From a virus: 29,769 nt of DNA. Where the stretch lies: positions 1 through 29,769 of IMG/VR virus record IMGVR_UViG_3300020578_000313; one strand, 5' to 3'. Under the pieces are notes generated by a model. It was not told where the DNA came from, did no database searches, and worked only from the letters and a program-made list of their open reading frames with translations. A program made the translations under genes and the position numbers. This document shows, piece by piece, positions 2,191 to 17,484 of this stretch. Numbering within the stretch: the stretch's first letter is position 1; every line of letters starts with the position of its first letter.

Positions 2191-2218
2191 CTACTTCATC
2201 AATATTTGATCTATTTTT

Positions 2219-2980
2219 ATGGCAAAAGGATTTACTGTAAAAGCAAAAAAACCTCCTGAACCAGAAGAACAATCACTCTTTGATATTCAAGAGTGCCTAG
2301 AACGCATTAGAGGAAAGAAAATTGTGTTCTGTCTTCCTGGACGTGGTGTTTCATATATCTTCCTCAAGAATTTCGTGCAACTGTGCTTTGATTTAGTACA
2401 AGCAGGTGCAAGTATTCATATTTCTCAAGATTATTCTTCCATGGTGAACTTTGCACGTTGTAAAGTTCTAGGTGCTAATGTTCTTAAAGGACCTGATCAG
2501 GTGCCCTGGCAAGGTAATCTAGAGTATGATTACCAACTTTGGATAGATAGTGACATTGTATTCAATACGGATGCCTTCTGGGCAATTTTCGCAATGGATA
2601 AGGACATTGCTGCTGGTTGGTATGCCACAGAAGATGGTAGAACCACCTCAGTTGCACATTGGTTAGATGAATCAGACTTCAAAAACAATGGTGGCGTCAT
2701 GAATCATGAAATGGTTGATACCATTTCCAACAGAAAGAAACCATTTACTGTAGACTATACTGGTTTTGGTTGGGTTCTGATCAAAAAAGGTGTATTTGAG
2801 CATCCAGAAATGAAGTATCCTTGGTTTGCACCTCAGATACAAGTCTTTGAGTCTGGTGAAGTACAAGATATGTGTGGGGAAGATGTATCATTCTGTCTTG
2901 ATGCAGTCAGAAAGTGTGGTTTTGAGATTTGGTGTCATCCACAAGTACGTGTAGGACATGAAAAAACAAGAATCATCTGA
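2219..2980 (+). CDS. GT-A fold glycosyltransferase
   Basis: Likely transfers a sugar from a nucleotide-sugar donor in the host cytoplasm. The acceptor is unknown. Residues 34-70 (KIVFCLPGRGVSYIFLKNF, then ISQDYSS) look like the first beta-strand and nucleotide-binding region of a GT-A fold. WIDSDIVF at 108-115 carries the Asp-x-Asp metal and donor motif (D110, D112). GEDVSF at 220-225 matches the acidic catalytic segment, and His247 near the C terminus could be a metal ligand. This is a cyanomyophage family I recognise as family 2/A-like. It has its own composite promoter. The following gene overlaps its end by 23 bases. Possible targets are virion proteins, phage DNA or host surface glycans. 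Confidence 0.85.
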   Translation: MAKGFTVKAKKPPEPEEQSLFDIQECLERIRGKKIVFCLPGRGVSYIFLKNFVQLCFDLVQAGASIHISQDYSSMVNFARCKVLGANVLKGPDQVPWQGNLEYDYQLWIDSDIVFNTDAFWAIFAMDKDIAAGWYATEDGRTTSVAHWLDESDFKNNGGVMNHEMVDTISNRKKPFTVDYTGFGWVLIKKGVFEHPEMKYPWFAPQIQVFESGEVQDMCGEDVSFCLDAVRKCGFEIWCHPQVRVGHEKTRII

Positions 2981-3140
2981 TCTTTATGACATTTATTGTG
3001 AGGGAAGGAAAATTTATACTTCCCTCACTGAGGAAGAAATGTTCGATACAATGGATGATCTGTCTCAACAGTATTATGAGACAGGGGTTCCCAAACCAGA
3101 GGACCTTATGATAGAATTGGTAAGAAGTTTAGAGGCATAA
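2958..3140 (+). CDS. small hypothetical protein, 60 aa
   Basis: Function is unknown. The acidic 60-residue protein contains DLYDIYCEGRKIYTSLTEEE (residues 8-27) followed by a helical Asp/Glu-rich tail. Small proteins with a similar DLYxxYCxGxxIYTxL pattern occur in cyanophages, as far as I recall. ATG at 2958 overlaps the glycosyltransferase gene by 23 bases. AGG lies only a few bases before it, so translation is probably coupled to the upstream gene. Confidence 0.7.
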   Translation: MKKQESSDLYDIYCEGRKIYTSLTEEEMFDTMDDLSQQYYETGVPKPEDLMIELVRSLEA

Positions 3141-3143
3141 CTC

Positions 3144-3287
3144 ATGGCAAAGCGTCCATCACTGACTAACAAAGTGGTCATTGAGCACAAACCCAAGAAG
3201 ACTCGTCAAGGTCGTTCACAGCACACCATTCTCTCTGCCACCTCTCGTAATGGCAGGAAGAAGCGTTACAGAGGTCAAGGTCATTGA
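3144..3287 (+). CDS. small, very basic conserved protein, 47 aa
   Basis: Function is unknown, but the sequence looks strongly constrained. The 47-residue protein opens MAKRPSLTNKVVIEHKPKK and ends in an Arg/Lys-rich tail (NGRKKRYRGQGH). I recognise it as a small basic protein common in cyanomyophages. Its charge suggests binding of RNA, DNA or ribosomes. GAGG precedes the ATG at about eight bases. Arginine is mostly CGT, unlike the AGA-rich AT-biased genes around it, which hints at high expression. It lies in a different frame from, and ends just before, the SET-domain gene. Confidence 0.8.
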   Translation: MAKRPSLTNKVVIEHKPKKTRQGRSQHTILSATSRNGRKKRYRGQGH

Positions 3288-3288
3288 T

Positions 3289-3651
3289 GTGTTATTAATA
3301 GATTATTATATTGAAAAAAGTCCAATTCATGGATTTGGTGTATTTGCCTCAAAATTAATTGCAAAAGGAACTAAAGTATGGGAATTTACACCTGGCCTTG
3401 ATAGAGAATGGACTCAAGAAGAGTTTAAAACTCTACCAAACAAAGCACAAGAATATATACTACATTATGGATGGTTAGATCCACTCACAAATATGCATCG
3501 ATTTCCTTTTGATCATGATCGATTTATTAATTGGAGTCATAATCCAAATGTTGGTGGTACAAGTGATGAAATTTTTGCACTAAAAGACATTCAAGAAGGT
3601 GAAGAATTAACTTTTCCATTTGAAGAAGATGCTCTATCAAAGATAAACTAG
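3289..3651 (+). CDS. SET-domain protein (possible lysine methyltransferase)
   Basis: SET proteins transfer methyl groups from S-adenosylmethionine to lysine side chains. Here SPIHGFGVFA (residues 11-20) matches the N-terminal SET signature. RFINWSHNPN (78-87) aligns with the canonical RFxNHSCxPN cofactor site, and GEELTFPFEE (104-113) with GEELTxDY. Two changes stand out: His-to-Trp and Cys-to-His in the first site, and Phe where the catalytic Tyr usually is. The enzyme may be specialised or inactive. I chose GTG at 3289 (120 residues), because AAGG lies eight bases upstream and it begins just after the previous stop. The frame also allows TTG at 3181, but that overlaps the 47-residue gene entirely. 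The substrate is unknown. Confidence 0.75.
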   Translation: MLLIDYYIEKSPIHGFGVFASKLIAKGTKVWEFTPGLDREWTQEEFKTLPNKAQEYILHYGWLDPLTNMHRFPFDHDRFINWSHNPNVGGTSDEIFALKDIQEGEELTFPFEEDALSKIN

Positions 3652-3657
3652 GTCAAA

Positions 3658-3876
3658 ATGATTCAGTTAAACCCACAAATCCCAGTTTTGACTCCAAAAG
3701 GGTCAGGTTGGGCATTTTTTTTAATTGATAGATCTCAAGAACATGACCTTGAGTGGGTAGTTTTCCTAGATAATGGTGGATACTGTTGGACCTTTAAGAA
3801 CTCAGACATAAGAATTCAGAAAAATTTAACTTTTCATAGGGATAAAATTGATGATTTCGGGATAGAAACCCCGTAA
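3658..3876 (+). CDS. conserved hypothetical phage protein, 72 aa
   Basis: Function is unknown. The opening MIQLNPQIPVLTPKGSGWA followed by DLEWVVFLDNGGYCWTFKN and DIRIQKNLT resembles a small protein family I know from several phages. It looks like a compact all-beta domain. AGG lies a few bases before the ATG, six bases after the SET gene stop, so the two are probably co-translated. CGGG/CCCG inverted arms at 3858-3861 and 3870-3873 overlap the stop region. Confidence 0.75.
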   Translation: MIQLNPQIPVLTPKGSGWAFFLIDRSQEHDLEWVVFLDNGGYCWTFKNSDIRIQKNLTFHRDKIDDFGIETP

Positions 3877-3880
3877 AAAG

Positions 3881-3903
3881 TTCTAATTCACTTTGAATTA
3901 GGA
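3881..3903 (+). promoter_or_regulatory. hairpin covering the next gene's ribosome-binding site
   Basis: CTAATTC (3883-3889) and GAATTAG (3895-3901) are perfect arms, and pairing extends outward to 3881 and 3903 through one G-U pair. The right arm includes the AGGA used by the gene starting at 3907. The folded RNA would hide the ribosome-binding site. Confidence 0.5.
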
Positions 3904-3906
3904 AAA

Positions 3907-4143
3907 ATGTCCAACTTACCAGTAGATAGAGACCAAAATTACATGTACAGCATGTGGGGGACTACAAAATTAGTCACTGATTATGGTCAACCACATAAAA
4001 TCCTTAAAGAAATTACCCATGAAGAGGTTCATACTGACCATTATCTAAAAGAACAGGCAGAAATGCATGAGAAAATTAGAAATGATGAAGATTATGATGA
4101 TTGGGAGTATGGAACTGAGCCAACATATGGTAAACCACAATAA
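3907..4143 (+). CDS. acidic hypothetical protein, 78 aa
   Basis: Function is unknown. The protein is hydrophilic and rich in Asp, Glu, His and Tyr. It opens MSNLPVDRDQNYMYSMWGTT, has a helical middle (residues about 37-58) and a disordered acidic tail (EDYDDWEYGTEPTYGKPQ). There is no membrane segment or known motif. AGGA precedes the ATG but falls within a hairpin. The stop codon lies inside the late promoter motif for gp25, so this is the last gene before the late structural block. Confidence 0.7.
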   Translation: MSNLPVDRDQNYMYSMWGTTKLVTDYGQPHKILKEITHEEVHTDHYLKEQAEMHEKIRNDEDYDDWEYGTEPTYGKPQ

Positions 4144-4146
4144 ATA
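4140..4146 (+). promoter_or_regulatory. late promoter motif ATAAATA before gp25
   Basis: ATAAATA matches the core of the T4 late promoter TATAAATA, recognised by the phage sigma factor gp55. It overlaps the stop codon of the previous gene and lies 25 bases before the gp25 start. It probably opens the structural operon. Confidence 0.6.
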
Positions 4147-4171: not shown

Positions 4172-4573
4172 GTGCCTTTAGAGAATATATCAAAAGGTTT
4201 TAAGGATATTAGTTTGTCTTTTTTAAGACATCCAGTAACCAACGACATTGCAGTGATCAAAAATGAAGATGCCATCAAAAAGGCAGTTGTGAATTTGGTT
4301 AGAACTAAACTTGGCGAGAGGTTTTTTAACTCTTTACTTGGTTCTGATGTAGAAAGTTATCTCTTCGAATTAGCAGATAGTGGAGTGGTTGATCCATTGA
4401 AAGATGAGATCACCACTCTTTTAAATAACTTTGAACCAAGAATCACCACTAGAAAAGTTGATGTTGATATTCCACAAGATAGTAATGAGTTAATTGTAAC
4501 AATTTACTTTGATATTATAGGAATTGCACCAACGCAGATCGTAACCTTCATATTACAACCCACTAGGTACTAA
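4172..4573 (+). CDS. 25: baseplate wedge subunit gp25
   Basis: gp25 is part of the conserved core bundle of the contractile-tail baseplate wedge, together with gp6 and gp7 and joining the sheath. At 133 residues it is almost the length of T4 gp25 (132). It has the GPW/gp25 family features: an N-terminal GFKDISLSF strand, the helix KKAVVNLVRTKLGERFF, a Gly/Asp stretch (LLGSDVESYLFE), and the hallmark EPRI motif in NNFEPRITTRKVDV (residues about 89-102). The start must be GTG at 4172. The nearby ATG at 4165 is out of frame and stops after 12 codons. The stop overlaps the gp6 start (TAATG), so translation is coupled. Confidence 0.93.
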   Translation: MPLENISKGFKDISLSFLRHPVTNDIAVIKNEDAIKKAVVNLVRTKLGERFFNSLLGSDVESYLFELADSGVVDPLKDEITTLLNNFEPRITTRKVDVDIPQDSNELIVTIYFDIIGIAPTQIVTFILQPTRY

Positions 4574-6456
4574 TGGCATTTACAGAGTTTACCAACTTAG
4601 ATTTTGATCAAGTAAAAACTTCCATTAAGGATTACCTTAGGGCGAACTCCACATTTACTGATTTTGACTTTGAAGGTTCCAACTTTTCTGTCCTGATTGA
4701 TATTCTTGCATATAACACTTATATTACTGCCTATAACACCAACATGGTGGCAAATGAGGCATTCATTGATAGTGCAACAATCAGAGAGAATGTAGTATCT
4801 GCAGCAAGAAACATTGGTTATATACCCCTCTCTAGAAGGGCAGCGAAGGCAGATGTTTCCTTTGTGGTGTCTGGTATTAGCACAAGCATTAAAACAGCAA
4901 CCCTGAGGTCAGGACTGGTCTGTACAGGGGATCTAGATAACACAACATACATCTTTTCAACACCAGAAGATGTAACAGTTGGCGTAACTAATGGTGAAGC
5001 AACATTTAATAATGTAGAAATCTATGAAGGAACATATTTAACAAGAACATTTACTGTAGATACATCACAACCTAATCAAAAGTTTATTATTCCAAACCCA
5101 TATGTAGATACTTCTACAATTAGAGTCAATGTAACTAATGGACCAAATGATACTACAAAAGATGAATATGTTGCAGTAGACAATATTGTAGGAATTAACT
5201 CAGAATCTCAGATCTTTTTGATTCAAGAGGTCTCAGATGAAAAATATGAACTTTTCTTTGGAGATGGTGTTTTTGGAAAACAACTCAGCAATGGCGATCA
5301 AATCAATACCTCATACATTGTAACCAATGGATCCAATGGCAATGGAGCATCCAACTTTACATTCTCAGGTGAAGTTGTAGGTAATGATAACTCATCTTTA
5401 AGTGCAAAGGTTGGAATAGTAGTTACTAATCTTCCATCATCTAATGGAGATGATATTCAATCTTTAGAGTCAATTAGATATTATGCCCCAAGATTGTATT
5501 CATCACAATACAGAGCAGTAACTGCCAATGATTATGAAGCACTACTGCCATCAGTTTACCCAAATATTGAGTCAGTCACTGCATATGGTGGCGAAGAACT
5601 TGATCCACCACAATATGGTAAAGTATTCCTAGCAGTAAAACCAAAAAATTCAGATTATCTTTCAGAAGCAACAAAGGAAAGAATTCTAGAAGATCTTAAG
5701 AAGTACACAATTGCAGGCATCAAACCAGAGTTTGTAGATATTAATGTCCTTTACGTGGAACTTGATTCTACATTCTATTACAATTCTAATTTTATTGGAT
5801 CAGTAGATAACTTAAAAACTCAAGTTATTACTGCAATGGATAAATTTGCATTATCACCAGATTTAAACAAATTTGGTGGAAGATTTAAGTACAGCAAAGC
5901 AATTAGAATTATAGATTCTACTAATAAGGCTATTACATCAAACATTACCAAAGTTAAGATAAGACGTAATGTTGGCGTAATCTTAAATCAACCAACTCAA
6001 TATAAAGTCTGCTTTGAAAATAGATTCAGTGCCCTTTCTGCAGGATATAATATTAGATCAACTGGATTCTATATCAAAGATGTAAATAAGGTAGTTTATA
6101 TTACAGATATTCCAAATAGTGACATGAAAACTGGTAATTTATACTTGTTCTCTACTGATGGAAAGACTGTAACCACAGAATCTAAAAAGGTAGGAACAGT
6201 CAATTATATCACTGGTGAATTAGATATAGATAATATAAATGTAACCTCAACTTTGAGACCAAATAACATCATTGAAATTGAAGCTACTCCATATTCTAAT
6301 GATATTATTGCCAAGAAAACAATTTATCTAAAACTAGATGTTGGTGCAAGTAATTTCTCACCAGTTAAAGACATTATTTCTTCTGGAGAAAATGCATCTG
6401 GAAGTAGGTTTGATCCAGAATCAAGTTATTCAACTGATAAAAAAGTAAGAAGCTAA
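4573..6456 (+). CDS. 6: baseplate wedge subunit gp6
   Basis: gp6 is the dimeric ring-forming protein that ties the baseplate wedges together. The 627-residue product is close to T4 gp6 (660). Residues about 55-95 (NMVANEAFIDSATIRENVVS, then AARNIGYIPLSRRAA) carry the Baseplate_J-like N-terminal signature, and FFGDGVFGKQL around 227-237 is the typical strand-turn of this family. The middle has beta-rich insertions. A region near 315-330 (RYYAPRLYSSQYRAVTANDY) is also conserved in J-like proteins. It follows gp25 with a one-base overlap and precedes the gp7-position gene by four bases. The assignment rests on motifs and gene order. Confidence 0.93.
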   Translation: MAFTEFTNLDFDQVKTSIKDYLRANSTFTDFDFEGSNFSVLIDILAYNTYITAYNTNMVANEAFIDSATIRENVVSAARNIGYIPLSRRAAKADVSFVVSGISTSIKTATLRSGLVCTGDLDNTTYIFSTPEDVTVGVTNGEATFNNVEIYEGTYLTRTFTVDTSQPNQKFIIPNPYVDTSTIRVNVTNGPNDTTKDEYVAVDNIVGINSESQIFLIQEVSDEKYELFFGDGVFGKQLSNGDQINTSYIVTNGSNGNGASNFTFSGEVVGNDNSSLSAKVGIVVTNLPSSNGDDIQSLESIRYYAPRLYSSQYRAVTANDYEALLPSVYPNIESVTAYGGEELDPPQYGKVFLAVKPKNSDYLSEATKERILEDLKKYTIAGIKPEFVDINVLYVELDSTFYYNSNFIGSVDNLKTQVITAMDKFALSPDLNKFGGRFKYSKAIRIIDSTNKAITSNITKVKIRRNVGVILNQPTQYKVCFENRFSALSAGYNIRSTGFYIKDVNKVVYITDIPNSDMKTGNLYLFSTDGKTVTTESKKVGTVNYITGELDIDNINVTSTLRPNNIIEIEATPYSNDIIAKKTIYLKLDVGASNFSPVKDIISSGENASGSRFDPESSYSTDKKVRS

Positions 6457-6460
6457 TAAA

Positions 6461-9400
6461 ATGAATCAAGAAAAGAAAGTAGTCAAGATTAGTGACGTAA
6501 TTGAAAATCAAATTCCAGAGTTTTTATTAGCAGAAAATCCAAACTTTGTAGAATTTTTAAAGCAATATTATATTTCACAAGAATTTCAGGGGTCTTCCAC
6601 TGATCTTGCAGAAAACCTTGTTTCATATAAAAATATTGATGCTTTTAATGCAGACAATTTAATTAAAGATACTACACTGACTGTAAATGTAGAATTTTTC
6701 GATGATGTTATTAATGTAGAATCTACTAAAGGTTGGCCAAGAGAATATGGTCTTCTAAAAATTGATAATGAAATAATTACATATACTGGTATTACTACAA
6801 ACACATTCACTGGATGTATAAGAGGATTCAGTGGTATAGAATCACTGACAACCAAAAATAATCCAGAGTTTCTTACATTCAGTTCAACAGAGTCTGATGA
6901 ACATGCATCAGGAGCAACTGTAGTCAATCTAAGTAATTTATTTTTACAAGAGTTCTTTAAAAAAATTAAGTATCAATTTGCTCCTGGATTTGAAGAACTT
7001 GAATTTGATTCACATGTAAATCCACAAAATTTCATAAGCAAAGTAAAATCTTTTTATCAATCAAAAGGAACTGATGAAGCTTATAAGATTTTGTTCAAAG
7101 TTCTATGGAATAAAAACGTAGAAATCTTAAAACCCCAAAAGTTTTGTTTCACTCCTTCAGATGATAAGTGGGTGGTTACTGAAACATTCTTATGTGAATA
7201 TGTCAGTGGAAATCCAATTAATGTAAAAGGTGAAACACTATATCAAGATGAATTTGCAGATGAAGAGGTTTTACCTGCTAGTGGTTCAATTTATGAAGTA
7301 GAGGCATATCCAATTAATGGAAATACCTTCTATAATCTTAAAATTTTTGCAGGGTATTCAAATAACTTAAATCCAAAAGGATCTATTTCAGGAACTTTTA
7401 ATCCTACATCAAAAACTTTTGTTATTGATAATGTAGAACCTAATGCAACTGAAGTTTTTGTAGATTCTACTATTGGATTTCCTAAGTCTGGAACTGTTTT
7501 AATAGGATCTAATACTGTCACTTATACTGATAAAACAAATGATCAATTTTTGAACTGTTCTGGTATTGGATCTGGTATTGTAAGAGGATCAAAAGTTTAT
7601 GCAAGGAATTTTGCATATGCTTATGAAGATGGTGATAAAGATAAACCTGTAAAATTTAGAATTCATAATGTATTGTCTAAAATTGAGTCTAGTGATATTA
7701 AATTTGCTTATTCTGGAGATCCAATTAAAGTCACTGACATTGGAGATCCAAAGAGTTCAGTCTTTGTATCTTCTTTGCTTTACAATCATGCATTAAATGT
7801 TCCTGCTGGAATTGCCACATCTCAAATAACTGACTTTATTAGAAGTTTTACTAAACAAGCGTTTGATACTAATTCTGGATTAGTTTTAACCAAGTATGAG
7901 CATAACTTAAAATCAGGAGACACTGTTGATCTTTATGTTAAAAGCACAAATCAATTAGTTGCACCAAATCTCACTGTTAATACTGCATTAAAAAATGAAT
8001 TTAGTGTTCAGCAAATAACTAATCCTACATTCTTAGGAAAAGAAATTTTCTTTAGAAGAAGAATTAAAAAAACAAAGTCTCCTGCAAATAGCATAGAATC
8101 CATTAGTAACAAATTTATTGCCAACATTCAAGATTCTTTTTCTGATTCAGATAACTACTATTTAACTTCTAATGGATTGCCATCTTATGAAATCAATCCA
8201 TACAAAAGAGAAGTTGACTTTTCTGTTACTGATATAGATTTAAATGGCGGTCATAATTTTTATAGTGGAGAATTAGTTACTGTAGTTGGATATGGAGTGA
8301 GTGGATCATTCTCTAATCAAATTGGAATTTCTACAGGGGTTAGTTATTATGTTTCCAGAGTTAATAGTAATAAAATAAGAGTTTGTGAATCTAGAGAAAA
8401 TGTAGGATTGTCTTCTTATATTAATTTTATAGAATATAATAGTGCAGGAATTGAAACTGCAAATATTAATCAATTAAAGTTGATTAGTTCTCCATTATTT
8501 AATAATAATTTTACTACATCAAAACTGTTTAAAAAACTTCCAAAAGTTCCAGAATATCCACCAACTAAATTAAAAACTCAGGCAGGACCTGTTGGTATTT
8601 TTGTCAATGGAATTGAAATTCAAAATTATAAGTCTTTTGACAAATTATACTATGGAAAAATTGATAATATTACAGTTCTAAATGGTGGAAATAATTATAG
8701 TTTACTAAATCCTCCAAAGTTTAAAATTTTCAATGGAACAATAGAAGATACTCAGACTAGATTACTTCCACAATTAGTGGGCAAATTAAAACAAATTGAC
8801 GTTATTGATTCTGGATTTGATTATGTAGAAGTTCCAACTGTTACAATTCAAGGTGGTAATAATTCAGAAGTAGTAACAGAAGTAAAACTTAAAGAGTCTT
8901 CTAACATAATTACTTTCAACTCAACTACTAAGGATACAGTAGTCAGCACTGCTACTAGTAGTTTTGTTTTGGGGTATCAACATAGGTTTGTAACTGGAGA
9001 ACCAGTAATCTACAAAACTTTTGGCACTAGGCCAATTGGTATTGGGACTGCAACTACAGATGGAACTTTACTTGATGGTTCTGTTTATTATGTTGTTAAT
9101 ATTGGAGCAGGAACTTCTTTTAGAATTGCAAAGAGTAAAGAAGATGCTTTTTCTTTAACAAATACTTTAAAATTAAGAACTAATGGAGGAGGAATAAATC
9201 AATTCATTTCTTTAGAAAAAAGAAACCTTATAGATGAAGTTAGAATTTTAGAAAATAATAAACATTTTCAATATAGAAAACTTTCAACTGGCCCAGAAGG
9301 AATCAATATATATGATGATGTAATCACCATACCAAATCATGGATTTGAAACTGGTGAAGAAATTAGGGTCACTGTGGATGGAACTTATCTTGAGGGATTA

Positions 9401-12400
9401 GAACCAAGTCAATATTATTATATTGTTAAACTAGATAATGATAAATTTAAATTATCATCAACTAAAAATGCAATTAATTATGTTGATATAATTAGCACTG
9501 ACTTTTCTACTACCTATTTCTTTGAATATTCTCCAATTAGAGTAACTATTCAGGGAAGCCTAACAGTATCTGGTGTCTCTACTATTGGATATAATGCAAC
9601 TTTAGTTCCTGTAATTGAGGGTTATGTAGATGGAGTTCAAGTACAACAAGGTCTAGCACAACCAGCAAAATCTGATTTAGGATCTAAAGAAATTATCAAT
9701 TTCAATAATAGTCCTACAATTTTACCATTAGAAGGATCTGATGCAGTCATAGAACCTCTGATTGTAGATGGAAGGGTTAACCAAGTTGTAGTTAAATCCC
9801 AAGGAAAAAATTACTTCAATAATTTTGAACTAGTAGTAAGAGGAGACGGATATGGAGCAAAACTATCTCCAGTAATAGTAAATGGTAAAATTACTGATGT
9901 AAAGATTGTAAATGGTGGGGCAGGGTACACTCAAAATGCAACTTCAATTAGAATATCCCCATTAGGATCTGGAGTAAAATTAAAAGCAAATCTTCAAAGT
10001 TGGACTATTAATGAAGTAGATAAACTTGGATATACTAATGTAGAAAAGGGAATTCTTTTTGGCAAAAAATATTCATTGTTTGGAAATGTGTTTGGACTAT
10101 TTTTCCTAAACACAGACATAAGAACACAATTAGGAATTTCACAGACTCCAACAGCACACTCTCCAATAGTTGGGTGGTCTTATGATGGATGCCCAATTTA
10201 TGGTCCATTTGGATTTACTAATGCAGATGGCACTGGTGGATTGTCTAGAATGAGAAGTGGTTATAGCAAAACCAAGATTAGTCCATCTTCATCATTTGAT
10301 TGTATAGAAGATTATAAGTTTACAAATAGTGGAACACTTGATAAGCATAATGGTAGATATTGTGTAACTCCTGAGTATCCAAATGGTGTTTATGCATACT
10401 TTTGTACTTTAGATAACAACAATATTCCAGAGTTCCCATATGTCATTGGAGATGAATACAACTTTACTCCAAATCCTGAAAACTTTAATTTAAAATATAA
10501 TCAAACTATCAATTTCAACACATTAGATATTGATAAATGCACTAAACCCTATAGAATAGATGATAAAGAAAGTGGATATGAATATTTTAATTTCTTGGAA
10601 AGTGGGATTGTTAATGATGCTATTACTACAGATTCTACTCAAGGAAAAGTAGATAGTCTACTAATAGCAGATAGTGGATCTAATTATGAAGTAGGAGATT
10701 CCATAGTATTTGACAATACTGGAACAGGTGGTTCTGGGGCATTGGCAAAAGTAATAGAAGTGTCTGGGGTAGGAGTAAATACTTTCAGAAGCACTTCAAC
10801 AACATTTAATAATGTAACCTTTACATCTGATAATGGTAAAATAGTTGCTATAACTACATCTTCACATGGATTAATAACTGATTATTATATTAGTATTTCT
10901 GGATTGTCTACATCAATTTATCCAGATGCACAAGGATTTAAAAAGATCACAGTAGATCAGATTACAGTAGGTCTATCAACTTTCTTACCAGATAGCACTG
11001 TCACTGGATTAGTTACATCTATTCAAATTAAAGAATCTATTTCCAACTTTAAGGTAGATTCTAAGATTAAAATTGAAAATGAAACACTAACTATTATAGG
11101 AATTGATAAGATAAACAATTTAATCAATGTATTAAGAGATTCTGGATCTCCAGGACACCTTCAAAATACACCAGTAACGCTACTGCAGAATGAATTTACT
11201 TATGATAATTCATTAAAGTATGTTTTACCTGAACCAAATATATCTTATTATTTTAAATCCTCAGACGCAGTTTCTGTGGGACTTGGAACTACTCCAGGTT
11301 CAGGAAATACTTTATCCATAGTTCCATTTGGTCCAGGGGTTTCTGAAACTAAATTTGTAAGAACTGCTGGAATTTTCTTACCTGGACACCAATTTAAAGA
11401 TGGAGAAAAGGTAACATATACTTCATCTACATCAACTATAGTCAGTAATTTTGGCAATCTAGACCAAATTGCAAATCTTTATATTGTAAATCTAGAAGAC
11501 AATGTAGTTGGATTGGTAACAGACAAGAAAAATATTAAAAATTTGACTAATCTACTGTATTATAGTGCTGCAGGAACTGGAAACACTCATAAATTTACTA
11601 CAAACAGACAAGTAGTTACTGGAATTGCAACAATTACCAATGTAATAGTATCTACTGCAGCAACTCATGGATTGTCTGTGGGAAATATTGTTAAACTTTA
11701 TGCCACATCTGGCATAACAACTGATTTTGTAGTTGGATATTCTACAGCAACAAAGAGAGTGTCTGTAAACTCATCAACTAATCCAAGAATTGATGTTTAT
11801 GAAAATGACATAGTTAGATTTGATATAACTTCTGCAACTCTAGGTGGAACAGAATTTAATTTCTACACTGATCCAAAATTTGAAAATAAGTATTTTGGAA
11901 CTGGAAGTGGCATTGAAGTATCAAAATCTGCGAATTATGTAACATTAGAAATATCAGATCATACACCAAGACTTTTATACTACAACTTAGCATCAACAAC
12001 TAAACAAGTTTTTTCTGATACTACAGTAACTAATGCTAATACTTTGGTTATCAATAAGAGTGCATATAACAATAGTGGATTTATAAGTACATGCACTTCT
12101 AACACATTTACTGTCAATTATCCATTAAACTTAGAAAGACCAAGATATACAAGACCAACCTCTACATTATCATATAGTGTGTTATCTACTGGAATTAAGG
12201 GAGCAATTGTTGCTACTAGATTTAATTCTAAAGGGAGCAATTATAGAAAAATTCCATCTATTAAAGGTATAGTGACCAAATCTGGTACTGGTGCTTCTTT
12301 AATAGCAAATAGCAATAGTATTGGAAAAATTAAAAATCTACAAATTTTAAATACAAAATCAATTTACCCATCAGATAGAACTCTGAGTCCAATATCCAAT

Positions 12401-14716
12401 ATTTTCTCTACTGTAAGAGTAAAAGATAATTTTCAGGTTGGTAATGTTTCAATTTTAAGTGGTGGTAGAAATTATCTGACCCCTCCAATTTTAAAATTAT
12501 ACAATAAGAAAGAAAATACTATTATTTCAAACTTCTCTGCAGCTGCTATCTTAAAAGATAGTTTTGTAGACTCTGTAACAGTATTAAATCCAGGATCTGG
12601 ACTTAAATATACAGATAATCAAGTTATCACTACAAATCATACTAATGGAATTAGAATTTTAGGAGTTTCTGCTTCTGGAGTTTCTGCTCCATTCTTGGTT
12701 ACTTTGACTTTAGAAACTCCACTAGTTGGATTTACCACTGACAATCCTTTAGATATTAAAGTTGGTGATAAAATTTTAGTAGAAGGTGTTCAACACATTA
12801 TTGGAACTGGATACAATTCAAGCAATTATGAGTATGAACCATTTACAGTAACTTATGTAGATCAAGCATTAAGTTCACCAGATGCTGCTCAAATTAGATA
12901 TGAATTGAATACCAATCCAGGATCATTTGTAGAAGCAGGATCATTTGATGCTAAAGTAGTAAAATATGATTATGTGCCACAATTTGAAGTCTCTTTAGTA
13001 GAAAGTGAGTTCTTTAATTCAGAAAAAGTTGATGGTGCTCAAATTATAGATAATGACAACAATACAAAAATTACCAACTTAATTAAAGTAAAATCTGCAG
13101 ATAGTTTATCCAAAGATCAAGTAATTTTTGGACAATCATCCAGATCAAGAGGGAAAATCTTTAGTATTGATAATTTTACAACATCTTTCAAGGTAGATTC
13201 TAGTGTTTCTGAAGAGGTAGGTTGGAAAGACTTTAAAGGAAATCTATCTTCAATTCTTCAAAAATTACCAGATAATGACTATTATCAAAAATTCTCATAT
13301 TCATTAAAGAGTAAAGAACAGTTTGTAACTTGGGATCCTATTGTTTCTGATTTGTCTCATGTTTCTGGATATAAGAAATTTGGAGATTTGATCATTGAAT
13401 CCATTGGTGTTGGAAGTAGTTTGCCAATTAAGTCTGATGCACTTTCTCAAATTAATGTCTTCTTAGAAGGATATGGAAATGTAAATACTGTTTCTGGATT
13501 TGATTTAGTTTCTGAAGAAGATGTTGATGATAATAATGGAGATTACTCTGAATATCTGAAATTTAAGAGCAAAAAACTATCAAACTTCTTATTATCTGTA
13601 GAAAATAGAGTCCTTTCTATAGATGATATTTCTGGATTATTTGATAATGATACTTTCCCAGTTGTAAGTATTCCAATTGATACAGTTGATTCTAATAATA
13701 CAACTGTACTAAAATACATATTCTTTATTGCATCAACCACATCATTCTTTGGAACTTTTGAAATTCCACAACTACTTGAAGTATTTGTCACTAGGAATGG
13801 AAATGATGTAAATCTAACATCATATGCTTATTACTATAGTGGAGAAAATAATCAAATTACAGTTCTTGGCGATATTGAATCTGATGTTAATGCTACAAAC
13901 TTTGATGAAATTGTAATTTCATTCTTACCAAAGAGTCCATTCAACAGTTATGCAATTAGAGCAATTAAAGAAGTTGCTCAAACTAGTGTTGGGATTACTA
14001 CTCAACATATTGGATATAATAAAAACATTGAAGTTACTGTTGGATATGCATCTTCAGCATCTCCAACAACTCAGGTTTTATATTCAATTCCACAATCAGA
14101 GTGTAAGTCTGGAACTGTTTTCTTAGGAATTTCTTCCACAACAAAATCAGTACAACATGCCATTGAAATGTCATTCATAAAAGTGGATAATGACATTAAT
14201 TATAATGTGTATTCAGAACAAAATTACATGAATCTTGGATCTGTTGGTATTACCACTAATGGATCTAACATTGAATTTACTTTTGATCCAGTTGCTGGAA
14301 TAGGAGTTACAGTACATGCTAATTTAAATCTTTTAGTTAATACCCTTGCATCTCCAAATATAGTATTGAATGAATTAACTAGATTAGAAAGTGATGTAGT
14401 TACTTTCTCTGGCACTGGTCCTCAAACCATTGCTAGTGTAACTGATGATTTTGCTGCAAGTAAATTAACTTTAGAAATTGAAAAGACTGTAGGATTAACC
14501 ACAGAAAGATGTTTGGTTCAATTAGATACAATTCATTTTGAAAATTATTTAAACATCACAGAATATGGATTTACAGGCAATCTCCAATTAAATGAGTTTA
14601 CATTTGATTCTACTTATAATTCTGGAACAGGAATTTACATTTTAACAATGGAAGCAGAAGACTCTGCAAACTATGTGGTTAAGTTCTATCAAAGAAGCAT
14701 ATCCAACCCTAATTAA
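6461..14716 (+). CDS. giant baseplate wedge-like structural protein in the gp7 position, with YHYH domain
   Basis: By position between gp6 and gp8 this should be the wedge component corresponding to T4 gp7, but it is 2751 residues against 1032 in T4. Residues 1-230 form a conserved head (VIENQIPEFLLAENPNFVEF near 13-32; NPQNFISKVKSFYQSKGTDE near 187-206) that likely anchors it to gp6. Much of the rest is beta-rich repeats: an IDNEIITYTGI module near 101-111, TGEPVIY...YYVV modules, and Gly-x-Gly/Asn-Tyr-x-x-Pro repeats (for example near 743, 1150, 1405 and 2000). Residues about 1225-1335 form a YHYH-type domain (HSPIVGWSYDGCPIYGPFG from 1233) with the namesake motif changed to YAYF (1311-1314). 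It may be a long peripheral arm. Homology to T4 gp7 itself is not proven. Confidence 0.8.
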   Translation: MNQEKKVVKISDVIENQIPEFLLAENPNFVEFLKQYYISQEFQGSSTDLAENLVSYKNIDAFNADNLIKDTTLTVNVEFFDDVINVESTKGWPREYGLLKIDNEIITYTGITTNTFTGCIRGFSGIESLTTKNNPEFLTFSSTESDEHASGATVVNLSNLFLQEFFKKIKYQFAPGFEELEFDSHVNPQNFISKVKSFYQSKGTDEAYKILFKVLWNKNVEILKPQKFCFTPSDDKWVVTETFLCEYVSGNPINVKGETLYQDEFADEEVLPASGSIYEVEAYPINGNTFYNLKIFAGYSNNLNPKGSISGTFNPTSKTFVIDNVEPNATEVFVDSTIGFPKSGTVLIGSNTVTYTDKTNDQFLNCSGIGSGIVRGSKVYARNFAYAYEDGDKDKPVKFRIHNVLSKIESSDIKFAYSGDPIKVTDIGDPKSSVFVSSLLYNHALNVPAGIATSQITDFIRSFTKQAFDTNSGLVLTKYEHNLKSGDTVDLYVKSTNQLVAPNLTVNTALKNEFSVQQITNPTFLGKEIFFRRRIKKTKSPANSIESISNKFIANIQDSFSDSDNYYLTSNGLPSYEINPYKREVDFSVTDIDLNGGHNFYSGELVTVVGYGVSGSFSNQIGISTGVSYYVSRVNSNKIRVCESRENVGLSSYINFIEYNSAGIETANINQLKLISSPLFNNNFTTSKLFKKLPKVPEYPPTKLKTQAGPVGIFVNGIEIQNYKSFDKLYYGKIDNITVLNGGNNYSLLNPPKFKIFNGTIEDTQTRLLPQLVGKLKQIDVIDSGFDYVEVPTVTIQGGNNSEVVTEVKLKESSNIITFNSTTKDTVVSTATSSFVLGYQHRFVTGEPVIYKTFGTRPIGIGTATTDGTLLDGSVYYVVNIGAGTSFRIAKSKEDAFSLTNTLKLRTNGGGINQFISLEKRNLIDEVRILENNKHFQYRKLSTGPEGINIYDDVITIPNHGFETGEEIRVTVDGTYLEGLEPSQYYYIVKLDNDKFKLSSTKNAINYVDIISTDFSTTYFFEYSPIRVTIQGSLTVSGVSTIGYNATLVPVIEGYVDGVQVQQGLAQPAKSDLGSKEIINFNNSPTILPLEGSDAVIEPLIVDGRVNQVVVKSQGKNYFNNFELVVRGDGYGAKLSPVIVNGKITDVKIVNGGAGYTQNATSIRISPLGSGVKLKANLQSWTINEVDKLGYTNVEKGILFGKKYSLFGNVFGLFFLNTDIRTQLGISQTPTAHSPIVGWSYDGCPIYGPFGFTNADGTGGLSRMRSGYSKTKISPSSSFDCIEDYKFTNSGTLDKHNGRYCVTPEYPNGVYAYFCTLDNNNIPEFPYVIGDEYNFTPNPENFNLKYNQTINFNTLDIDKCTKPYRIDDKESGYEYFNFLESGIVNDAITTDSTQGKVDSLLIADSGSNYEVGDSIVFDNTGTGGSGALAKVIEVSGVGVNTFRSTSTTFNNVTFTSDNGKIVAITTSSHGLITDYYISISGLSTSIYPDAQGFKKITVDQITVGLSTFLPDSTVTGLVTSIQIKESISNFKVDSKIKIENETLTIIGIDKINNLINVLRDSGSPGHLQNTPVTLLQNEFTYDNSLKYVLPEPNISYYFKSSDAVSVGLGTTPGSGNTLSIVPFGPGVSETKFVRTAGIFLPGHQFKDGEKVTYTSSTSTIVSNFGNLDQIANLYIVNLEDNVVGLVTDKKNIKNLTNLLYYSAAGTGNTHKFTTNRQVVTGIATITNVIVSTAATHGLSVGNIVKLYATSGITTDFVVGYSTATKRVSVNSSTNPRIDVYENDIVRFDITSATLGGTEFNFYTDPKFENKYFGTGSGIEVSKSANYVTLEISDHTPRLLYYNLASTTKQVFSDTTVTNANTLVINKSAYNNSGFISTCTSNTFTVNYPLNLERPRYTRPTSTLSYSVLSTGIKGAIVATRFNSKGSNYRKIPSIKGIVTKSGTGASLIANSNSIGKIKNLQILNTKSIYPSDRTLSPISNIFSTVRVKDNFQVGNVSILSGGRNYLTPPILKLYNKKENTIISNFSAAAILKDSFVDSVTVLNPGSGLKYTDNQVITTNHTNGIRILGVSASGVSAPFLVTLTLETPLVGFTTDNPLDIKVGDKILVEGVQHIIGTGYNSSNYEYEPFTVTYVDQALSSPDAAQIRYELNTNPGSFVEAGSFDAKVVKYDYVPQFEVSLVESEFFNSEKVDGAQIIDNDNNTKITNLIKVKSADSLSKDQVIFGQSSRSRGKIFSIDNFTTSFKVDSSVSEEVGWKDFKGNLSSILQKLPDNDYYQKFSYSLKSKEQFVTWDPIVSDLSHVSGYKKFGDLIIESIGVGSSLPIKSDALSQINVFLEGYGNVNTVSGFDLVSEEDVDDNNGDYSEYLKFKSKKLSNFLLSVENRVLSIDDISGLFDNDTFPVVSIPIDTVDSNNTTVLKYIFFIASTTSFFGTFEIPQLLEVFVTRNGNDVNLTSYAYYYSGENNQITVLGDIESDVNATNFDEIVISFLPKSPFNSYAIRAIKEVAQTSVGITTQHIGYNKNIEVTVGYASSASPTTQVLYSIPQSECKSGTVFLGISSTTKSVQHAIEMSFIKVDNDINYNVYSEQNYMNLGSVGITTNGSNIEFTFDPVAGIGVTVHANLNLLVNTLASPNIVLNELTRLESDVVTFSGTGPQTIASVTDDFAASKLTLEIEKTVGLTTERCLVQLDTIHFENYLNITEYGFTGNLQLNEFTFDSTYNSGTGIYILTMEAEDSANYVVKFYQRSISNPN

Positions 14717-14733: not shown

Positions 14734-17484
14734 ATGCCTACGCAAGATATTGGTGCAATCTATACTCCTTCCATTTTTGGTAGAACGTCATTTCCCTTAC
14801 AGCATAAAGGAGATCCAATTTTCTTTAAGAAATTTGATGCAGCAAATTCAGCGATAGTCAGTTTACCAAATGATACCATTTATATTCAAAATCATTTTTT
14901 CAAAACTGGAGAACCACTAAAGTATACATTTGCAACTGGTTCTGCTATTGGCATTGATAGTTCTAGTCCAGGAGCAGGGTCTACCTTAACATCACTTCCT
15001 GGAATTGTATATCCAGTAGTGGTGGATAAAGATAGATTTAGAGTTTCTCTTGCTTCTTCATTGGCATTGAACAATCAATATGCAGATTTAATTTCTTTAG
15101 GAATTGGCACTCAGCATTCTTTTGAAGCATTTAAGCAAAATACCAAGTGTTTAATTAGTATAGACAATATTATTCAGTCTCCAATTTCTGTAGCAGCAAC
15201 TGTTGGTATTGTAACTTATTCTAATATTGGAATCACTGTAGATAAAATTAAAAACATTAGAATTGGCACAAATATTAGAATTGGAATTGCAACTGTTGCT
15301 CAAGAAATAGTCAAAGTTTCTGCAATTAATTATGCAACTAAGCAACTTTCAATATCTAGAGGAATTGAAATTTTAGGAACTCCTCAAATTAATTTTACAG
15401 ATGAAAATGTTTTATCTTCATATGCAGAAATTCTTTCTGGAAATTATAACATAGTAAAGGATAAAATCTTTTTCACTGCTGCTCCTTTAGAGGGAACTAG
15501 CACCAACTTCTTTATTCCATTAAGTGATATTGATTTTGGATTTCACAGTTTTTCTATATTGACCAATGATTTAAAAACTGGATCAGAAATATTTTTCTTC
15601 TCAAATAACCCCCCACAAGAATTAGAAAATGGGAAAAAATATTATATTATTAGAAATGGTAACAATAATTTTAGTTTGGCTGCAACTTTTGTAGATTCTC
15701 TAAATGGAGTAAAAATTCAATTTACTAATCAAAGTGGAAATCTTTTTCCTGTAGATGGATTTCAATTATTTGCAGTATCCTCTAGAGATAACAGTAACTT
15801 TGAGGGAAGAGTATTCTTAAAGTCAAATTATGATGGAAATTATGTATTTGATGATCTTTCAGAACAGTTTACAGGTATTACCAGTTCATTTGAATTAAAA
15901 GTTTCTGGTATAAGCACTGTAGGGATTAAATCTGATAATGGTATAGTATTAATTAATAATGTCTTCCAATATCCAGAATTTGATGAAGCATTTGTATACG
16001 AAGAAGGTGTAGGAATTACAAGTATTACATTCTTAGGATCTGCAGCATCTAAACCTTATGATGTGAATGTAAAAGGTCTTCCAAGAGGTGGAATTATCAT
16101 TTCCTATGGATCTACTGGTGGATTTAATTATCAACCCCTTGTTGCTGCTGCAGGAACAGCTATAGTGTCTGCTGGTGGAACTATTGAGTCAGTTTTAATT
16201 AACACTCCAGGTTCTGGGTATAGATCTGGAATTACAACTTATTATGTAACATTTGATGATGGTGAAGGAAATGGATCTGGGGCTTTAGGAGAAGCACAAG
16301 TTAATAATGGGCAAGTTGTTTCAGTAGGGATAATTACTGGAGGTAGTGGATATTTAGTAGGACTTTCTACATACACTGCCAGATTTGATTCTCCTATCCC
16401 ATATGAAAATGTACCTTTATCTGGATCTGCAGCAGGAATAGGAGCTTCTGTTTCATTTGAAATTACTCCACAAGGAAGCATTGAAAAACTCATATTCTCA
16501 AATCGTGGATATAATTATAGAACTGAAGAAATTTTAACTCCTGTTGGGATTTTAACTTCTGCATCTCATAATCCTGCTACTGACCAATTAAAAATTAATC
16601 TTCAAGAAGTTGCTAAAGATGATTTTTCTGCTTGGAATATTGGCATATTGCAAAAATTAGATGATCTAACCAATAAAGTTAATGGTAGAAGAAAAGTATT
16701 TACTTTAACTGAAACTATTAATAATAAGTCCAGAAGAGTAAGTTTAGAATCTGAAGTAGGATCAGAAATAGAACTTGCTTACAATTTATTAGTTTTTGTC
16801 AATGATGTCCTCCAAACTCCAAATAAATCATACACATTCACTGGTGGATCCCAAATTACATTTAGTGAAGCAATCCCTACAGGAAGCACTCTGAAAGTTT
16901 ATTTTTACAAAGGTGCATCTACAGATGCTCAATTCTTTACCAGTAGACTACAGATTAAAGAAGGTGATAAATTGCAACTTGCACAGCATATTTTTGGAGT
17001 TCCACCAGTTGGCCAAAAACCAAGAACTGTTGTTAGAATTTTAAGTTCAGATACATTAAGAACAGAAGTATATGATGATGTTGGAATTTCTGCATCTTCA
17101 GACCAACTAAGGTCAATTGCATGGACTCCTCAAAATAGAGATCTAATTATCAATGGAGAATTTGTAAGTAAAGCAAGAGAGCAACAAGAATCTGGAATTA
17201 CATCATTTACTAAACTAACAGACAATATTATTGTTGGAATAAACACAGTAGGAATATCTACTGCTGATGGAGTCTTTATTGGTATTAACACTGATGTTAT
17301 TGGGATTAACACTATTTCTGGAATAGGATCTTTAGTTCAAATTAAAGACTATGTAGAAGGTCCATATCTTGGTGTTGGTGTTACTGTTGTTTCTATTGGA
17401 TCAAGTTTTGTAGGTCTTTCTACAACCTCATCATCTCCAAGTGGAACTAACTTAACTTCAATTTCTTTCTATAGAGTCAACTAA
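14734..17484 (+). CDS. virion structural protein, beta-repeat rich, 916 aa
   Basis: Probably a baseplate-peripheral or fibre protein, judged by its place between the gp7-position gene and gp8 and by modules shared with both. It opens MPTQDIGAIYTPSIFGRTSF. Residues about 50-115 hold a TGEPLKY...YPVVVDKDRFRVS module, with a diverged copy near 285-325 (TGSEIFFF...KKYYIIRNGNNNFSL). Residues about 490-550 hold NTPGSGYRSG and ITGGSGYLVG repeats. The C-terminal part has a region VFVNDVLQTPNKSYTFTGGS (near 687-706), which looks like a repeated beta-sandwich of phage tail proteins, and ends in a Gly/Ile/Ser-rich beta region. I see no catalytic motifs. I cannot match it to a specific T4 protein. Confidence 0.85.
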   Translation: MPTQDIGAIYTPSIFGRTSFPLQHKGDPIFFKKFDAANSAIVSLPNDTIYIQNHFFKTGEPLKYTFATGSAIGIDSSSPGAGSTLTSLPGIVYPVVVDKDRFRVSLASSLALNNQYADLISLGIGTQHSFEAFKQNTKCLISIDNIIQSPISVAATVGIVTYSNIGITVDKIKNIRIGTNIRIGIATVAQEIVKVSAINYATKQLSISRGIEILGTPQINFTDENVLSSYAEILSGNYNIVKDKIFFTAAPLEGTSTNFFIPLSDIDFGFHSFSILTNDLKTGSEIFFFSNNPPQELENGKKYYIIRNGNNNFSLAATFVDSLNGVKIQFTNQSGNLFPVDGFQLFAVSSRDNSNFEGRVFLKSNYDGNYVFDDLSEQFTGITSSFELKVSGISTVGIKSDNGIVLINNVFQYPEFDEAFVYEEGVGITSITFLGSAASKPYDVNVKGLPRGGIIISYGSTGGFNYQPLVAAAGTAIVSAGGTIESVLINTPGSGYRSGITTYYVTFDDGEGNGSGALGEAQVNNGQVVSVGIITGGSGYLVGLSTYTARFDSPIPYENVPLSGSAAGIGASVSFEITPQGSIEKLIFSNRGYNYRTEEILTPVGILTSASHNPATDQLKINLQEVAKDDFSAWNIGILQKLDDLTNKVNGRRKVFTLTETINNKSRRVSLESEVGSEIELAYNLLVFVNDVLQTPNKSYTFTGGSQITFSEAIPTGSTLKVYFYKGASTDAQFFTSRLQIKEGDKLQLAQHIFGVPPVGQKPRTVVRILSSDTLRTEVYDDVGISASSDQLRSIAWTPQNRDLIINGEFVSKAREQQESGITSFTKLTDNIIVGINTVGISTADGVFIGINTDVIGINTISGIGSLVQIKDYVEGPYLGVGVTVVSIGSSFVGLSTTSSSPSGTNLTSISFYRVN

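Follow-up and report, generated by a model that had tools for sequence, protein, structure and literature searches.

The baseplate wedge protein at the gp7 position of this T4-like cyanophage fragment carries the C-terminal half of a YHYH domain (PF14240). We interpret it, with a probability of roughly 0.7, as a degenerate and probably metal-free copy that was captured once, lost its histidines and was retained for a structural role. An ancestral cyanophage gp7 (VrlC-type wedge protein) would have acquired the domain a single time and early. The N-half, with the GH-P and Y-H-x-H histidines that are co-conserved in cellular and free-standing phage relatives, would then have decayed, and the beta-rich C-half (HSPIxGWxYDGxPIYGP ... 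DY ... LDxxNGRxCVTPEYPxGxYAYF) would have been held under strong purifying selection, its most likely role in the wedge being that of a rigid, folded unit or of an interface. Nearly all cyanophage gp7 proteins would have retained this structural module. More tentatively, at somewhat under even odds, nearly all of these gp7s may contain a domesticated pseudo-enzyme, that is, an ancestral YHYH metal protein without its histidines that became an essential part of the wedge and whose fold has no solved structure, some of the same phages also carrying intact free-standing YHYH proteins.

Genomic context and domain assignment

In the window (the whole stretch of 29,769 nucleotides analysed), the genes are ordered gp25, gp6, the 2751-residue carrier ORF and a gp8-like ORF (Table 1). 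This order, together with the match of the carrier to phrog_2885 in PHROG ('baseplate wedge subunit', E 0), supports its gp7 position; it thus shares with the cyanophage gp7/VrlC wedge proteins both homology and a place downstream of gp25-gp6. The whole gp7 query matched 466 phage records, nearly all annotated as cyanophage, and the domain query matched 463, part of which may be free-standing YHYH genes. The next ORF (14734-17484) matches the C-terminal part of phrog_2885 (positions 3531-3890, E 7.7e-149), and the giant gp7 found in P-SSM2 and other phages therefore appears to be divided between two ORFs here. The short module just upstream of the YHYH core is built of strands in the AlphaFold model, whose residues 1-50 have pLDDT 80-91, and gave short, low-significance matches to many baseplate proteins in BFVD.

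A profile search placed PF14240 in the gp7-position protein at E 2.4e-22 and 80.3 bits (cut-off 25), a score far above chance that marks a real domain. Of the full-length profile (positions 1-193) only the later part is covered, the match starting at position 88, past the site of the namesake YHYH. Both C-half motifs, HSPIxGxxxDGxPIYG and LDxxNGR, are found in the protein. These results bear out the sequence-only reading in its proposal of a YHYH-type domain within a baseplate wedge protein, and the strings it quoted are present, including HSPIVGWSYDGCPIYGPFG and the YAYF at 10391-10402, which belongs to NGRYCVTPEYPNGVYAYF, ending at aa 1314.

Table 1 Features of the gp7 region in the window
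Feature	Position	Strand	Remarks
gp25	4172-4573		upstream of the gp7-position ORF
gp6	4573-6456		upstream of the gp7-position ORF
gp7-position (VrlC-type) baseplate wedge protein, carrier of the domain	6461..14716	+	2751 aa; phrog_2885
Short beta-rich tail module (VVKSQGKNYFNN...VNGGAGYTQN..)	9788..9976	+	apart from the YHYH core, just upstream
GNVFGLFFLNTDIRTQL, probably what erosion has left of the true YHYH segment	10082..10132	+	from position and comparison with sister gp7s
PF14240 (YHYH), C-terminal half	10145..10429	+	aa 1229-1323; profile 88-188 of 193
HSPIVGWSYDGCPIYGPFG	10157..10213	+	aa 1233-1251; holds H1233 and D1242
LDKHNGRYCVTPEYPNGVYAYF, second motif	10337..10402	+	YAYF is the normal subfamily state, no altered YHYH

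The two tyrosine motifs are separate sites

The sequence-only reading had taken YAYF for an altered form of the namesake motif. In the profile, however, the namesake YHYH, which is invariant, belongs to the N-half (about 74-77), the half missing here, and the second motif lies at about 178-182. The free-standing protein AOO13851.1 of phage S-RIM14, which has both YHYH and YAYF at two separate places, served as a test of the register: its peptide ending in GRYHYH aligned to profile positions 6-77 and its LDIHNGR..TYAYF peptide (LDIHNGRYCVTPEYPDGTYAYF...) to 158-184, which identifies YHYH and YAYF as different sites.

For a wider comparison we used 80 cellular loci, mostly from Bacteroidota with Planctomycetota and Acidobacteriota, which yielded 78 distinct domain sequences. 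A scan of genome contigs with the domain of the gp7-position protein alone found no relative; an alignment-based scan succeeded. At the second motif the 78 sequences read 77 Y/1 F, 66 A/12 C, 78 Y and 76 F/2 Y, so that 76 of them have Y-A/C-Y-F (one F for the first Y allowed), a count to be read knowing that the scan patterns excluded the YAYF residues yet are biased towards the YAYF subfamily. Judged from these alignments, YAYF is the normal state of the subfamily and no loss, because sequences with an intact N-half Y-H-x-H, cellular ones and AOO13851.1 alike, also read YAYF or YCYF. Other subfamilies have TYHYVLT, GYHYHVT or MYHYVLT at the second motif, with the N-half YHYH present in the same sequences. 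A loss of metal binding through a change of the namesake YHYH to YAYF could draw on some Verrucomicrobiota-type-set and Bradyrhizobium sequences, in which the second motif is YHYH or YHYV, but it is contradicted by the intact Y-H-x-H sequences that carry YAYF or YCYF (76/78 cellular sequences ending in F, and AOO13851.1); it is refuted as stated for the YAYF subfamily, and we consider it highly improbable overall.

Loss of the N-half histidines in gp7

Copies within gp7 were sorted from other YHYH domains by the gp7 match of the remaining protein with the domain masked, which gave 57 copies; a second scan added 77, for a total of 130 distinct copies. Cellular sequences conserve three N-half histidines almost without exception (model positions H69 and H77 in 77/78 each, H79 in 78/78), the latter two being the histidines of Y-H-x-H. 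In the 57 gp7 copies these histidines are lost, with H77 and H79 each at 0/57 and H69 at 2/57 (29-36 of the 57 being unaligned there), and none of the 130 distinct copies has Y-H-x-H within 100 aa upstream of the core. The GH-P histidine is lost alongside. At the namesake site gp7 copies read YSHL, YAHL, YGQV and similar, and in the gp7 of the window, which likewise lacks the motif, the site is unrecognisable. Of the free-standing phage proteins aligned at these positions, all but one either have both H69 and H79 or lack both, which suggests that the two belong to one site. The lost H69, H77 and H79 are the likely ligands of the predicted metal, and the gp7 domain probably lacks the metal site. 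The earlier proposal of a structural module that had lost metal binding thus probably stands, supported by the 0/130 count, but for another reason than the one given: the loss concerns the N-half Y-H-x-H and GHP histidine, and YAYF or YCYF is usual at the second motif.

A remnant of the N-half is still visible in many gp7s, as GGEYAHLSNPQRLR (syn9 type), YGLQYSHLYAPRKLRESL (Bellamy type) or EYGYGHVANPKALR, where cellular sequences have GEYHHHLNPRCL. The HMM alignment of the syn9-type gp7 spans it (fDtakG...GEYAHLSNPQrLR against fDsakghp...geYHhHqnps), and we therefore prefer erosion to a simple deletion of the N-half. In the gp7 of the window, the GNVFGLFFLNTDIRTQL segment gave no significant alignment, the HMM match beginning at model position 106. 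A truncation artefact was rejected as the origin of the missing N-half, the ORF being open across it and sister gp7s holding an alignable remnant. Five of the 130 copies lack even the HSP histidine (VSNIIGW, ISGIIGW, VSKIIGW), which takes the decay one step further.

Retention of the C-half

Outside the N-half the domain is conserved. H112, D121 and D192 are present in 57/57 gp7 copies and D181 is D in 54 and E in three; all four are invariant or nearly so across 175 sequences. The gp7, phage and cellular copies agree in this for H112 and D121, which correspond to H1233 and D1242 in the gp7 of the window. These four residues could form a different site, and a still-active, tail-associated metal hydrolase built on them would explain their invariance. 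For the YHYH domains of tail and baseplate proteins, a Zn2+ site and a hydrolase function have been predicted from a conserved His triad plus Asp, to which the passage concerned assigns no positions (Iyer et al. 2021, PMC7824862). Set against that signature, gp7 retains H112 and D121 but has lost H69, H77 and H79, which are jointly lost also in some free-standing phage proteins, and the HSP histidine is itself missing in the 5/130 copies noted above; we regard an active hydrolase as quite unlikely.

The AlphaFold model of the window's domain is confident in the C-half (pLDDT mostly 83-97), with mostly 38-59 in the N-half, and its C-half has the same strand order as the model of an intact phage YHYH domain (pLDDT 83.9, pTM 0.83). 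Foldseek matched it in BFVD to the intact S-RIM14 YHYH protein (E 1.3e-10, 3.3 A, 120 columns) and to that of P-TIM40 (about 3 A, 120 columns). Neither the window's model nor the intact one matched a PDB fold (Foldseek, VIA-align), and searches of PDB sequences with the domain and with the profile found none. Giant-virus YHYH-like proteins (BFVD A0A5B8IDC5 and A0A5J6VJS1, from Mimiviridae sp. ChoanoV1 and a Megaviridae sample) also match the window's model.

In a comparison with four relatives over 1500 aa of gp7, the core (aa 1235-1345) contains the most identical 100-aa windows. Its dN is 0.10-0.30 against 0.22-0.52 in the flanks, the ratios being rough with dS near saturation (about 0.7-1.1 in the core). 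In a tree of 130 columns, in which many forks are unresolved, a branch with SH-aLRT 88 separates the gp7 copies from the other sequences. Receptor-binding tips are usually not strongly conserved, the reverse of the gp7 core. A receptor- or glycan-binding baseplate module, of which the sequence-only reading had raised the receptor-binding form, is disfavoured by this conservation and by the lack of a PDB fold match, and we judge it unlikely, although a receptor role has been suggested for YHYH domains, which in pelagimyophages were grouped with carbohydrate-binding and host-recognition domains (PMC7029224), and lectin-domain fusions are reported in PMC7824862. The role of the gp7 YHYH core would instead be structural.

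Relation to known YHYH proteins

The tail and baseplate fusions described in PMC7824862 share the Pfam domain and protein class with the gp7 copies but are predicted Zn2+ hydrolases, whereas the gp7 copies are without the N-half histidines. AOO13851.1 has nearly identical C-half motifs (HSKIVGFCYDGYPVYGP, LDIHNGRYCVTPEYPDGTYAYF) but a full N-half with CGGHPEQNGRYHYH, whose histidines are absent from the window's gp7. P-SSM2 gp7, syn9 gp101, Bellamy gp111 and the S-PM2 protein share the place after gp6, the embedded half-domain and YAYF or YCYF. Overall identity to cyanophage gp7/VrlC proteins is about 28-32%, and in many of these the remnant is less eroded (YSHL, YAHL). As the YHYH domain in tail and baseplate proteins is already published as a predicted Zn hydrolase, what is new here is that the gp7 branch has lost the triad; no statement that gp7 copies lack the metal site was found in the open-access literature searched, subscription journals being outside its scope. 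The comparison corrects the confusion of YAYF with the namesake YHYH, sets a probably metal-less gp7 branch apart from intact free-standing tail proteins, and cautions that not every phage YHYH domain should be taken for a metal hydrolase. It also draws attention to a widespread fold without a detectable PDB relative that very abundant marine phages have in their baseplates.

Several other YHYH proteins were encountered. AOO13851.1 (S-RIM14, 2207-3928) continues from the YHYH domain into a C-terminal region of the alpha/beta hydrolase type that resembles PHA depolymerases (weak, sub-threshold matches). In phages DSL-LC01 (2777-4144) and S-RIM14 (5212-8763) an insert separates the two YHYH halves; that of DSL-LC01 has a cupredoxin-like look (Pfam E 0.003-0.007, below cut-off; motif YYYICQFHSLMQG) and that of S-RIM14 (YYFCYNHANM) has no Pfam match. 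ORFs of 3209-7476 aa with YHYH domains occur in the bacterial bin Flavobacteriales TMED113, possibly as binned phage contigs.
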